The translations under genes were made by a program, and so were the position numbers. The notes under the pieces were generated by a model, which saw nothing but the letters and a program-made list of their open reading frames with translations, made no database searches and was not told the DNA's origin. Positions 11,469-16,074 of a stretch of DNA of 64,000 bases are shown here, in pieces. Positions within the stretch are counted from its first letter, which is position 1. The number at the start of each line of letters is the position of its first letter. The DNA is from Candidatus Dormiibacterota bacterium (GTDB taxonomy: Bacteria; Chloroflexota; Dormibacteria; CF-121): assembly GCA_035544955.1 (NCBI GenBank), contig DASZZN010000014.1:62001-126000 (forward strand). Direction: 5' to 3'.

Positions 11469-11534
11469 CGGGCTGGTACGGGCATATGTTGTGGCCAGCG
11501 CTGTCTGAAAACCCTACCGGCTGTGGTAAACTGC

Positions 11535-11563
11535 TTGACAGGCTACATCCTACGGCATACGAT
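11535..11563 (+). promoter_or_regulatory. Sigma-70 promoter of nrdJ
   Basis: A perfect -35 TTGACA (11535-11540), a 17-bp spacer and -10 TACGAT (11558-11563). Transcription would begin near 11570 and leave a leader of about 55 nt before the nrdJ ATG. This is the best housekeeping promoter in the window. I see no clear NrdR box or cobalamin riboswitch in the leader. Confidence 0.7.
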
Positions 11564-11623
11564 GTGGGCCGCTCTCCACCCCATCCCACCCCATCTCATT
11601 CCCACCCTACGGAGGTTTCATCG

Positions 11624-14416
11624 ATGGCCCGATCGACCCAAAAAACGTCAACTGAGCGACCCAACGTGACTGCGGCGGCCCCCGCCAGCGCCTCGAAGCG
11701 CAACCGAAACGGCCTCTCCTGGAAGCGGTACTTCACCCGCCCGGGTGTGGCGCCGTTCGACGAGGTCCAGTGGGAAATACGCGAGGCGTCCATCACCAAC
11801 GAAAAGGGTGAGGTCGTCTTCGAGCAGCACGACGTGGAGATCCCGACGACCTGGTCGGCGACCGCCACCAACGTCGTCGTCTCGAAGTACTTCCGTGGGG
11901 TAATTGGCACGCCCGAACGCGAGCGCAGCGTCAAGCAGTTGATCGGCCGCGTGGTGCGCACCATCCATGGGTGGGCGAACAAGCAGGGATACTTCGCGAC
12001 GCCGGAGGCCGCGGAGATCTTCCGCGATGAACTGACCCATCTGTTGGTGCACCAGAAGGCCGCCTTCAACAGCCCGGTCTGGTTCAACGCCGGCATCGAG
12101 CAACGTCCTCAACTTTCGGCTTGCTTCATCAACAAAATCGAGGACCGGATGGAGTCGATTCTCACCTTGGCCAAGACCGAGGGGATGCTCTTCAAGTACG
12201 GCTCGGGCACCGGCACCAACCTCTCGCCACTTCGCTCCTCGCGTGAGCTGCTCGCGGGTGGCGGAACGGCATCCGGCCCTGTCTCCTTCATGAAGGGCTT
12301 CGACGCCTTCGCCGGCGTGATCAAGTCCGGCGGCAAGACACGACGGGCGGCCAAGATGGTCATCCTCAACGTCGACCATCCCGACATCGTCGAGTTCATC
12401 AACTGCAAGGTCGAGGAGGAGCGCAAGGCCTGGACCCTGATCGAAGGCGGCTACGACTCGTCCTTCAACGGCCCTGCCTACAGCTCGATCTTCTTCCAGA
12501 ACTCCAACAACAGCGTCCGGGTCAAGGATGACTTCATGAAGGCCGTGGAGGAGGACGCCGATTGGCACACCTTCGCCATCACGACCGGCCAGATCATGGA
12601 CACCTACAAGGCGCGTGACCTGATGCGGATGATGGCCGATGCGGCGTGGGCCTGCGGCGATCCCGGACTGCAGTACGACACGACGGTGAACCACTGGCAC
12701 ACCAGCCCGAACACGGACCGGATCAACGCCTCCAACCCCTGCTCGGAGTACATGTTCCTCGACAACACCTCGTGCAACCTCGCCTCCATCAACCTGATGA
12801 AGTTCCTCGACGAGCGCGGCGAGTTCGACGTCGAGTCCTATCGCGAAGCCTGCCGGGTGCTGATCACCGCCCAGGAGATCCTGGTCGACAACGCCAGCTA
12901 CCCGACCGAGGCGATCACCCAGAACAGCAGGGACTTCCGGCCGCTCGGCCTCGGCTACGCCAACCTGGGCGCCCTGCTGATGGCGTCAGGCTTGCCCTAC
13001 GACAGTGATGCCGGTCGCGACGTGGCAGCCGCCCTCACCGCGGTGATGACCGGCGAGGCGTATGCCCAGTCGGCTCGCATCGCGCAGAAGAAAGGCCCCT
13101 TCAACGGCTTCGCGGTCAACCGCGAGCCCATGCTGCGCGTCATGGACCAGCACCGGAGCTCGGTCGACCACATCAACCCGGCGCATGTGCCGCTGCCACT
13201 GCTGAGCGCGGCGCGGGATGCGTGGGACAAGGCCTGCCAGCTGGGCGACCTCTATGGCTACCGCAACGCCCAGGCGACCGTGATCGCGCCCACGGGCACG
13301 ATCGGATTCATGATGGATTGCGACACCACCGGCATCGAGCCCGACATCGCCCTGGTCAAGTACAAGAAGCTGGTCGGCGGCGGCATGCTCAAGATCGTCA
13401 ACCAGACCGTGCCGATCGCCCTGCGCCGGATCGGCTATCCCGAGGCCCAGGTGTCCGAGATCCTCCAGTACATCGACGAAAACGACACCATCGAGGGTGC
13501 CCCGCACCTTCGGCCGGACGACCTGGCGGTCTTCGACTGCGCCTTCAAGCCGGCCAAGGGCTCCCGCACGATCCACTACATGGGGCACGTCAAGATGATG
13601 GCGGCGGCGCAACCCTTCATCTCCGGCGCGATCTCCAAGACCGTCAACATGCCCGAGCAGGCGACGCCCGAGGACATCATGGAGGTCTACCTGGAGGGAT
13701 GGCGCATGGGCCTCAAGGCGATCGCCATCTATCGCGACGGCTCCAAGCGCTCCCAGCCGCTCAACACGGCGCTGGACGACAAGAAGAAGGCCCGAACGAT
13801 CGCCGCGATCGCCACGGAGGCCCCCAGCGAGCCGGCGCGTGCCGTACGCCGCAAGCTGCTGGACGAGCGCCGGGCGATCACCCACAAGTTCGACATCCAG
13901 GGCCACGAGGGCTACATCACGGTCGGCATCTACGAGGACGGCACGCCCGGCGAGATCTTCCTGGTGATGTCCAAGGAAGGCAGCACCATCTCCGGGCTGA
14001 TGGATGCCTTCGCGACCAGCATCTCGCTGGCGCTCCAGTACGGTGTCCCGCTGGAAGTGCTGGTGAAGAAGTTCGCACACACCCGGTTCGAGCCCTCGGG
14101 CTTCACGAAGAACCCCGAAATCCCGATCGCGAAGTCGATCACCGACTACATCTTCCGCTGGCTCGCCTCGAAGTTCCTGAGTGGCACGCAGCAAGAAGCG
14201 ATCGGCATCGTACGCCGCGAGCCGATCGTCGAGATCCAGGCGACCGTCCCGGCCCCAGCACCGATCAAGCCGGCAACGGTCGATTCGAGCCCGATCAAGA
14301 TCAGTTTCGTGGGCCAGGAGGATGCGCCGGCGTGCTCGGACTGCGGCTCGATCATGATTCGCAACGGGACATGCTACAAGTGCCTCAACTGCGGCGGCAC
14401 TTCGGGTTGCTCTTAG
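11624..14416 (+). CDS. nrdJ: Adenosylcobalamin-dependent ribonucleotide reductase
   Basis: Class II (B12-dependent) reductase making deoxyribonucleotides without oxygen or a separate radical subunit. The protein has 930 aa. The substrate-site segments NSPVWFNAG, FKYGSGTGTN, NPCSEYMFLDNTSCNLAS and ATVIAPTGTIGFMMD are intact, and the C-terminus carries a Cys-rich zinc-ribbon/redox tail (CSDCG...CYKCLNCGG). The ATG at 11624 is chosen over longer in-frame starts because GGAGG lies 8 nt upstream. The window also contains two B12-dependent mutase subunits, so the cell must make or import cobalamin. Confidence 0.96.
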   Translation: MARSTQKTSTERPNVTAAAPASASKRNRNGLSWKRYFTRPGVAPFDEVQWEIREASITNEKGEVVFEQHDVEIPTTWSATATNVVVSKYFRGVIGTPERERSVKQLIGRVVRTIHGWANKQGYFATPEAAEIFRDELTHLLVHQKAAFNSPVWFNAGIEQRPQLSACFINKIEDRMESILTLAKTEGMLFKYGSGTGTNLSPLRSSRELLAGGGTASGPVSFMKGFDAFAGVIKSGGKTRRAAKMVILNVDHPDIVEFINCKVEEERKAWTLIEGGYDSSFNGPAYSSIFFQNSNNSVRVKDDFMKAVEEDADWHTFAITTGQIMDTYKARDLMRMMADAAWACGDPGLQYDTTVNHWHTSPNTDRINASNPCSEYMFLDNTSCNLASINLMKFLDERGEFDVESYREACRVLITAQEILVDNASYPTEAITQNSRDFRPLGLGYANLGALLMASGLPYDSDAGRDVAAALTAVMTGEAYAQSARIAQKKGPFNGFAVNREPMLRVMDQHRSSVDHINPAHVPLPLLSAARDAWDKACQLGDLYGYRNAQATVIAPTGTIGFMMDCDTTGIEPDIALVKYKKLVGGGMLKIVNQTVPIALRRIGYPEAQVSEILQYIDENDTIEGAPHLRPDDLAVFDCAFKPAKGSRTIHYMGHVKMMAAAQPFISGAISKTVNMPEQATPEDIMEVYLEGWRMGLKAIAIYRDGSKRSQPLNTALDDKKKARTIAAIATEAPSEPARAVRRKLLDERRAITHKFDIQGHEGYITVGIYEDGTPGEIFLVMSKEGSTISGLMDAFATSISLALQYGVPLEVLVKKFAHTRFEPSGFTKNPEIPIAKSITDYIFRWLASKFLSGTQQEAIGIVRREPIVEIQATVPAPAPIKPATVDSSPIKISFVGQEDAPACSDCGSIMIRNGTCYKCLNCGGTSGCS

Positions 14417-14439: not shown

Positions 14440-14610
14440 GTGGTCTCTTCCTCTCAACCCTCGATCACACTGCAAACGCATCCGTTGTGGTCGCATGAAG
14501 GTCCGCAATGTCCGTGCGGAGGCGCGACCGACTGGGATGGACGCAAATTTCGGTGTCGTGGGTGCGGTCTCTATTACGAAACCTGCTGTGATGGCGGTCG
14601 CTGTTCATGA
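14440..14610 (+). CDS. 56-aa zinc-ribbon protein
   Basis: A small protein starting at GTG 14440, 23 nt after nrdJ, with a strong AGGAGGAG ribosome site. It contains CPCGG, CRGCG and CDGGRC, eight cysteines in all, resembling a compact zinc ribbon or the Cys-rich tail of NrdJ itself. Co-transcription with nrdJ and the shared Cys pattern suggest a redox or metal accessory role, which is inference. Its last 26 codons are duplicated at 15039-15114. Confidence 0.65.
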   Translation: MVSSSQPSITLQTHPLWSHEGPQCPCGGATDWDGRKFRCRGCGLYYETCCDGGRCS

Positions 14611-15038
14611 TCGCGGAAAAATTCTGAAAATTTCTCTTCATTGACCCGCGCGGACCCGCACGCGGCCCGTTATTGCCGCCGCTCGCGAAAAAAATTGGGC
14701 CGAGAGTATGCAAAGCGGCTCAATTCATGCTATGGTCGCTCTACATGAGCGCTGAGCCGCGCTCTGATCGTCGCGTTGATCAGGGCGAGGACCTGAAGAA
14801 GGGCAACAGTCAAAGAACTCCGTCGGCCACATCGATGATCATCGACGCGTGGTCTCACGGATCCCGAGGGTTGATCGCGACACGCCGTCGCTCCTCTCGT
14901 TTTTCTCTCTCCACTTTGCTTCCGGTACCCGGCCTCGCCGGCGCCCGCGCGTCCACGGACCCCGTGGCGCTCACGCGCGTTTGGCGGCGGCGTCTAAGCG
15001 GCCGACCGGGAGAATCTTGCTAAGAAGGAGGTGAGCCC
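14535..15038 (+). repeat. Tandem duplication, unit 1
   Basis: The unit begins at the 13-mer GGATGGACGCAAA inside the zinc-ribbon gene and runs to the next copy of that 13-mer. It holds the gene's 3' end, a G+C-rich stretch, an extended -10 TGCTATGGT (14728-14736), a long non-coding body with strong hairpins (14832-14845, 14946-14979) and the ribosome site AAGGAGGTGA (15025-15034). Unit 2 is highly similar, 11 nt shorter, with the length difference confined to about 14640-14670. Confidence 0.85.
14728..15020 (+). ncRNA. Candidate structured RNA, copy 1
   Basis: From the extended -10 (TGCTATGGT) to the ribosome site the two copies match over almost 300 nt without an indel. A reading frame of about 97 codons is open in both, but 14 codon differences are non-synonymous and 4 synonymous, near the neutral expectation, so protein coding is not supported. 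Stems are kept while loops change: CCACG/CGTGG has loop GACCC here and TTACC in copy 2; TCGAT/ATCGA becomes TCGAT/GTCGA (a U-G pair). It could be an independent RNA or a long mRNA leader. Confidence 0.45.
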
Positions 15039-15114
15039 GGATGGCCGCAAATTCCGCTGTCGCGGCTGCGGCCTTTACTACGAAACCTGCGGCGACGATA
15101 GTCGCTGTCCATGA
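15031..15114 (+). pseudogene. Duplicated 3' fragment of the zinc-ribbon gene
   Basis: The frame reads SPDGRKFRCRGCGLYYETC and ends at the TGA at 15112-15114, repeating the C-terminus of the 56-aa zinc-ribbon protein without its N-terminal CPCGG part. A GTG at 15031 could start a 27-aa peptide, but it lies inside the ribosome site. The well-placed ATG at 15041 reads out of frame into a basic 65-aa chain. It is best explained as a by-product of the tandem duplication. Confidence 0.55.
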
Positions 15115-15531
15115 CCCTGGAAAAATTCTGAAAAATTCTCTTCGCTCACCGCGTGCGGCCCGTCATTGCCGCCGCTCGCGAAAAAAATTGGGCCGAGAGT
15201 ATGCAAAGCGGCTCGATTCATGCTATGGTCGCACTTAATGAGCGCCGAGTCGCGCTTTGATCGTCGCGTTGATCAGGGCGAGGACCTGAAGAAGGGCAAC
15301 ACTCAAAGAACTCCGCGGTCCAGGTCGATGGTTGTCGACGCATGGCCTCACGGATCCCGAGGGTCGATCGCGACGCGCCGTCGCTCCCCTCATTTCTCTC
15401 TCTCCACTTTGCTTCCGGTACCCGGCCTCGCCGGCGCCCGCGCGTCCACGTTACCCGTGGCGCTCACGCGCGTTTGGCGGCGGCGTCACAGCGGCCGACC
15501 GGGAGAATCTTGCTAAGAAGGAGGTGAGCCC
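15039..15531 (+). repeat. Tandem duplication, unit 2
   Basis: Second copy of the unit that starts at 14535, offset 493-504 nt. It begins at GGATGGCCGCAAA (15039-15051) and ends where the same 13-mer reappears at 15532-15544 as the start of the lysine-rich ORF. It includes a second extended -10 TGCTATGGT (15221-15229), the same hairpins (15325-15338, 15439-15472) and ribosome site (15518-15527). Confidence 0.85.
15221..15513 (+). ncRNA. Candidate structured RNA, copy 2
   Basis: The counterpart of the element at 14728-15020. The stem CGCGCGT-CCACG...CGTGG-CGCTC-ACGCGCG (15439-15472) is identical except for its loop, and the 42-nt block from GATCGTCGCG to GGGCAAC is unchanged. It directly precedes the ribosome site of the 21-aa lysine-rich ORF, so this copy at least may be its leader. 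Confidence 0.45.
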
Positions 15532-15533
15532 GG

Positions 15534-15599
15534 ATGGCCGCAAAGAAGAAAGCAGGCGGAAAGAAGAAAGCCGCGAAGAAGTCGTCGAAGAAGAAGTAG
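15534..15599 (+). CDS. 21-aa lysine-rich microprotein
   Basis: An ATG with a near-perfect ribosome site (AAGGAGGTGA, 15518-15527) starts a 21-residue peptide in which 12 residues are Lys (MAAKKKAGGKKK then AAKKSSKKK) and the rest are Ala, Gly or Ser. The composition recalls the C-terminal tails of bacterial histone-like proteins. A strong hairpin terminator follows 27 nt later. The peptide could bind nucleic acid; this is a guess from charge alone. The ribosome site plus terminator make translation plausible despite the size. Confidence 0.55.
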   Translation: MAAKKKAGGKKKAAKKSSKKK

Positions 15600-15625: not shown

Positions 15626-15651
15626 CAGCCGGTGCCTTCGGGCGCCGGCTG
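15626..15651 (+). terminator. Hairpin terminator with UUCG tetraloop
   Basis: CAGCCGGTGCC and GGCGCCGGCTG pair over 11 bp (one G-U) around a TTCG loop. Only a weak T-rich tail (TAGCATTTG) follows. It closes the 14.4-15.6 kb locus before the next gene. Confidence 0.7.
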
Positions 15652-15666
15652 TAGCATTTGTGGGCG

Positions 15667-16074
15667 ATGATCGATCTCGAGCGCGCCCGCCACTTCCTCA
15701 AGGTGCGTCACGACGGCATCCTGGCCACCATCAAGCGTGATGGCCGCCCCCAGCTCTCCAACATCTTGTATTTCATGGATGACGATGGCCGGGTGAAGGT
15801 CTCGGTCACCCAAACCCGCGCCAAGACGCACAACCTTCGTCGCGATCCACGGGCCAGCCTGCACGTCCAGGGCCGTGACCGCTACGAATACCTGGTGGCG
15901 GAGGGGACGGCGCAGTTTATCGAGGGCGACGAGCTCCCGGAGGCGCTCCGCCACTACTATCGCAAGGTCCGCGGCGAACACCCCGACTGGGCCGAATACG
16001 ACGCCGCCATGATCGCGGAGCAGCGCCTGCTGCTCTCCATCTCGGTCGAGCGCGCCTACGGCCAGCTGCGCTAG
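15667..16074 (+). CDS. PPOX-class (F420-type) oxidoreductase
   Basis: A 135-aa split-barrel flavin/deazaflavin protein of the pyridoxamine-5'-phosphate-oxidase superfamily. The pattern HDGILATIKRDGRPQLSNI (about residues 15-33), then KVSVTQTRAKTHNLRRDPR and EGTAQFIEG, is that of TIGR03618/F420-dependent members common in actinobacteria and Chloroflexota, which reduce various small molecules with F420H2. The ATG at 15667 is chosen over a TTG at 15658 because the alignment starts at IDLERARHFL. The substrate is unknown. It converges with the AsnC-domain gene, overlapping its stop. Confidence 0.82.
   Translation: MIDLERARHFLKVRHDGILATIKRDGRPQLSNILYFMDDDGRVKVSVTQTRAKTHNLRRDPRASLHVQGRDRYEYLVAEGTAQFIEGDELPEALRHYYRKVRGEHPDWAEYDAAMIAEQRLLLSISVERAYGQLR

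Follow-up and report, generated by a model that had tools for sequence, protein, structure and literature searches.

The region upstream of a gene for a 21-amino acid lysine-rich peptide is probably the 5' leader RNA of that gene; this leader has been doubled by tandem duplication and is a putative element of control in cis. The features on which the argument turns are given here in positions of the window, i.e. the whole 64,000-nucleotide stretch of DNA that was analysed.

11486-14416: nrdJ (name from Pfam)
14440-14610, plus strand: small Cys-rich ORF of 56 aa with GTG start, after nrdJ; a related stretch is present in single-copy relatives
14535-15038, plus strand: copy 1 of the unit (W1), with the end of the Cys-rich ORF, promoter region, leader, Shine-Dalgarno sequence and ATG; lysine-rich ORF lost
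15039-15536, plus strand: copy 2 (W2), with a headless Cys-rich stretch, promoter region, leader, and Shine-Dalgarno sequence and ATG of the lysine-rich ORF
15041-15238, plus strand: chimeric 65-aa ORF arising from the duplication junction and opened by the copy 1 start codon
15224-15229 (copy 2) and 14731-14736 (copy 1), plus strand: TATGGT, candidate -10 element
15253-15280 (copy 2) and 14760-14787 (copy 1), plus strand: 5' hairpin of 10 bp, loop variable in sequence and length
15325-15338 (copy 2) and 14832-14845 (copy 1), plus strand: TCGAT hairpin, not conserved as a structure
15412-15505 (copy 2, from folding and alignment) and 14919-15012 (copy 1), plus strand: core nested fold, P1-P6
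15439-15472 (copy 2) and 14946-14979 (copy 1), plus strand: CGCGCGT/CCACG hairpin, the tip of the core (P5 and P6)
15518-15527 (copy 2) and 15025-15034 (copy 1), plus strand: Shine-Dalgarno sequence AAGGAGGTGA
15534-15599, plus strand: lysine-rich mini-ORF, 21 aa, MAAKKKAGGKKKAAKKSSKKK, also found behind the leader in relatives
15626-15651, plus strand: hairpin CAGCCGGTGCC-TTCG-GGCGCCGGCTG after the mini-ORF, with a weak T run
15658-16074: PNPOx-like gene (name from Pfam)

The unit of about 500 bp comprises a promoter region, a leader of about 300 nt, a Shine-Dalgarno sequence and the start codon of the lysine-rich ORF, which is retained behind copy 2 only. The copies are 88% identical in an alignment of 517 columns. 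In same-genus relatives nrdJ is followed by the small Cys-rich stretch, then by the leader, the lysine-rich mini-ORF and the PNPOx-like gene. The unit is present once at each of the 12 same-genus loci spanning this region (L010-L019, L021, L022), and also once in L024-L026, which represent three further genera of the same family, f1. No third copy was found in the genome itself. Judged by these genomes, the tandem duplication is lineage-specific. The 13 bp GGATGGCCGCAAA at the copy junction (15039-15051) occur a second time where the mini-ORF starts (15532-15544), which makes a microhomology event likely; copy 1 has accordingly lost the mini-ORF. Assembly chimerism was considered as the origin of the duplication; the 13 shared bases at the join and the fact that both flanks are nearest to L010 and L012 speak against it. 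The distance between W1 and W2 (89% identity) equals that between separate species, more than a simple recent duplication would explain, and in a tree computed without L020 and L023 (both cut by contig ends) and without L024-L026 the two were not resolved as sisters. The unit begins with the 3' part of the Cys-rich ORF, which is located near nrdJ in relatives as well and is perhaps a detached zinc-binding tail; the corresponding stretch in copy 2 has no start codon of its own and is changed at sites fixed in relatives. The chimeric 65-aa ORF is basic and lies behind the strong Shine-Dalgarno sequence of copy 1.

The leader is conserved across the family, and its 3' half contains a fold of about 95 nt, in which P1 (15412-15419 paired with 15498-15505) encloses the nested helices P2 to P6 and whose 3' end lies 12 nt ahead of the invariant Shine-Dalgarno sequence. 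Across 18 sequences from four genera this core is near-invariant: 99.3% of cells are paired and 27 of the 34 pairs show no variation at all, in a structure drawn partly from the same sequences; P5 is invariant in 18/18 and P6 is paired in 97.8% of cells. Variable columns make up 7/68 in stems as compared to 37/66 in unpaired positions. On the plus strand, the consensus energy of the core is below that of all 200 column-shuffled alignments (z -4.08). An earlier note on this DNA, which compared the two copies only, had proposed that stems are conserved while loops diverge, and for the core this is borne out: the five sites at which W1 and W2 differ within the 134-nt core stretch (15403-15536) all lie outside its 68 stem positions (chance 0.027 given five), the 5' part has 22 differences in 195 positions (5/134 versus 22/195, Fisher p 0.014), and in the CGCGCGT/CCACG hairpin the loop alone differs (GACCC versus TTACC). 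Secondary structure is thus conserved ahead of a single ORF, as expected for a structured cis-regulatory leader RNA.

Could the hairpins be chance products of a GC-rich duplication in which nothing is selected? Folding energies of the single sequences are indeed ordinary in the window (z -1.35 and -1.58 for the cores, -0.73 for the whole leader) and the TCGAT hairpin is not conserved; however, a core that hardly changes between four genera and the fold statistics at the alignment level leave this explanation hardly any probability. The earlier note had named a lack of significant covariation as the result that would count against structure, and literally this is what we see in the f1 core (0/34 pairs), but its stems hardly vary, so that a covariation test has no power there. 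Stem changes in f1 keep the pair in nine cases and break it in five, where 6.5 of the 14 would be expected to keep it (alignment A2 without L023, alignment A3 without L020 and L023-L026); this ratio shows no clear excess and neither proves nor refutes structure in f1.

Conservation could instead act on the DNA, with the inverted repeats serving as protein-binding palindromes of an operator, a nucleoid or a recombination site. In line with this, the invariance of the core extends to its unpaired positions, and the minus strand too folds better than shuffled alignments (below 198 of 200, z -2.72). The plus strand folds more clearly however, the core stands directly before the Shine-Dalgarno sequence of the mini-ORF in f1 relatives, and the leaders of a second family of the class, f3, which occupy the same place, show compensatory changes, all of which makes a DNA site an unlikely explanation. 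The core model R1 matches 17/18 genomes of family f1, the stretch in the 18th (G005) being cut by a contig end, and among 400 genomes of the phylum its eight matches are all f1. Two weak matches outside f1 among 110 genomes of the class (G034, E 0.005; G078, E 0.04) were taken as chance. Named records carrying the core motif are soil Chloroflexi bins in 16/16 stretches; the class may be Limnocylindria.

On the 5' side of the leader, TATGGT is invariant in 14/14 genus sequences, which were themselves chosen by TATGGT, and it lies 193-198 nt from the core in 15/15 matched copies; a sigma-70 scan found no promoter site. Among 14 sequences, the 5' hairpin (CGCTCTGATC/GATCAGGGCG, of which copy 2 carries a wobble variant) is paired in 140/140 cells and shows three wobble-type changes; its variable loop accommodates the insertions of 3 nt seen in L018, L021 and L022. 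The consensus fold of the entire 5' half of the leader is weaker than that of the core (z -1.76; 8/200 shuffles as low). The TCGAT hairpin was rejected as a conserved structure: only 80% of its cells are paired in 15 genus sequences, both copies included, 326/500 shuffled partners do as well, two pairs are broken in 5/15 sequences and 11 of its 14 columns vary. Both hairpin pairs had been located and spelled correctly in the earlier note, and the differences between the copies in the TCGAT hairpin are as it described them.

The same note had concluded that selection acts on RNA structure and not on protein, citing 14 nonsynonymous and 4 synonymous codon changes in the overlapping open frame. 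Our recount for the 116-codon ORF gives 17 to 4 between W1 and W2, with pN/pS at 0.96 when counted from the ATG and at 1.14 when the longer frame is used. A protein would be expected to keep its frame and to vary most freely at third positions; instead, the frame is shifted in 2/14 genus sequences (L015 and L019), pN/pS averages 0.86 over nine equal-length sequences, and in codons 1-30 the second position is the most variable (variable columns at first, second and third positions 11, 15 and 10 of 30). By these measures the overlapping ORF does not look protein-coding. They also bear on the alternative that an upstream ORF (start 15238, 92 aa) is translated, possibly leaderless, and coupled to the mini-ORF. 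Its ATG after TATGGT is retained in 14/14 genus sequences, three relatives carry frame-keeping 3-nt insertions, and in most sequences its stop lies at the Shine-Dalgarno sequence, but these insertions fall within the 5' hairpin loop, and together with the frameshifts, pN/pS and codon positions this renders such an ORF very improbable. Taken together, the near-invariant core, its fold statistics and the lack of a coding signal uphold a constraint on RNA rather than protein for the core, whereas the failure of the TCGAT hairpin, paired at the level of shuffled partners, denies it to the second hairpin.

In contrast to the overlapping ORF, the lysine-rich mini-ORF does look protein-coding in the sequence comparisons. 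Apart from L019, where the ORF is shortened in frame, all genus sequences with a whole ORF encode the identical peptide, and changes in the other three genera are, by eye, mostly at third positions. The hairpin downstream (15626-15651) is present in 18/18 f1 sequences when searched for with a pattern that already assumes its shape; a terminator scan did not report it. Neither the duplication nor the mini-ORF nor its loss behind copy 1 had figured in the earlier note.

But what does copy 1 do, with its core intact and its ORF lost? One answer would be that leader and ORF are mainly a small RNA (a dual-function RNA or a peptide-RNA particle) rather than a cis-regulator, and that copy 1 survives as an ORF-less RNA. 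The core stems, unaltered in both copies, agree with this. Copy 1 is changed, however, at six leader positions that are uniform in all scored genus sequences (14740, 14743, 14744, 14824, 14872, 14895), three of which surround the presumed transcript start, as well as at two loop sites that are almost fixed (14959, 14960). These changes suggest relaxed selection outside the core and argue against the small RNA, to which we assign a low probability. Copy 2 has two changes at positions fixed in the genus (15250, 15257).

We return to the leader as a probable regulator in cis. Its structure and position are established by the comparisons above; from these we infer a transcript that would start just after TATGGT and in which the core fold would act in cis on the mini-ORF, controlling how well it is translated or how stable it is. 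A likely mode is that, as long as the core stays folded, the Shine-Dalgarno sequence would be paired with a pyrimidine tract next to the core; a ligand, for which the basic peptide is a possible candidate, may shift the balance. The tract before the core is predicted to bind the Shine-Dalgarno sequence more stably than the mean of its own shuffles in 17/18 sequences, a complementarity that fails in L026 and that any pyrimidine tract would give.

Genes of this kind have leaders outside f1 as well. The pattern of Shine-Dalgarno sequence, start and lysine codons is present in 49/110 genomes of the class, all of families f1 and f3, and in 23/301 genomes of the phylum, 19 of them f1 or f3. The f3 leaders (29 of 30 returned loci in alignment A5, L104 being f1 and excluded, and further paralogous matches left out) are conserved among themselves. 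Their consensus fold has a z of -4.5, and 7/32 pairs show compensatory changes on both sides, a number reached by 0/500 shuffles and by slid partners to at most 4, for helices chosen on the same alignment. A long-range helix is predicted between GGACCCGA in the internal loop of a 5' hairpin and UCGGGUCC just before the Shine-Dalgarno sequence, across other helices; a predicted ACCGCC/Shine-Dalgarno pairing is retained in most f3 leaders, and an arm of several tens of bases is missing from 7/29. That structured leaders precede the same kind of gene in both families supports the leader reading in f1. A common sequence of f1 and f3 leaders was sought, and profile matches did not extend beyond the ORF and the stretch immediately upstream of the Shine-Dalgarno sequence; elsewhere the leaders of the two families bear no resemblance to each other. 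It is at best a tentative idea that both descend from one ancestral regulatory RNA, a previously undescribed leader class for a lysine-rich mini-protein, in which the long-range helix just before the Shine-Dalgarno sequence would sense the basic peptide, or its binding partner, and switch translation. With their covarying helices and predicted long-range pairing, the f3 leaders (L075-L103) are a candidate RNA family of their own. The minus strand of L036 (1501-1788) carries a tandem pair of lysine-rich mini-ORFs about 240 nt from each other, and in L038 (1201-1650), from an f3 genome, the mini-ORF is preceded by yet another leader sequence.

The locus offers a candidate regulatory RNA together with a tiny basic protein from uncultured soil Chloroflexi. 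Genes of this kind have leaders of two different builds, and here a natural duplication has separated leader from gene. It also illustrates that a comparison of two copies can be right on one hairpin and wrong on the next. No match to Rfam 15 (4227 families) was obtained at the gathering threshold in the whole window or in six f3 loci, and the relaxed threshold returned sX6 only, at 13.9 bits against 40. A description of such a leader was not found in the literature searched, which covered few subscription journals and consisted mostly of listings and the beginnings of abstracts. In autoregulation by ribosomal-protein leaders, a basic and possibly RNA-binding product is likewise encoded directly after a structured leader; here, the product is a 21-aa lysine-rich peptide instead of a ribosomal protein, and its RNA binding is putative. 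Chloroflexi-1 RNA, which a table in PMC2864571 lists from Chloroflexus aggregans as Rfam RF01698, is a candidate structured RNA from the same phylum, but differs in that our locus has no Rfam match. The Downstream-peptide RNA differs in its peptide and its host, which here are lysine-rich and Chloroflexi, and in the missing Rfam match, which covers that family if it is in the library; like the present leader, however, it is described in PMC2864571 as a structured RNA located in the 5' UTR that precedes a short ORF.
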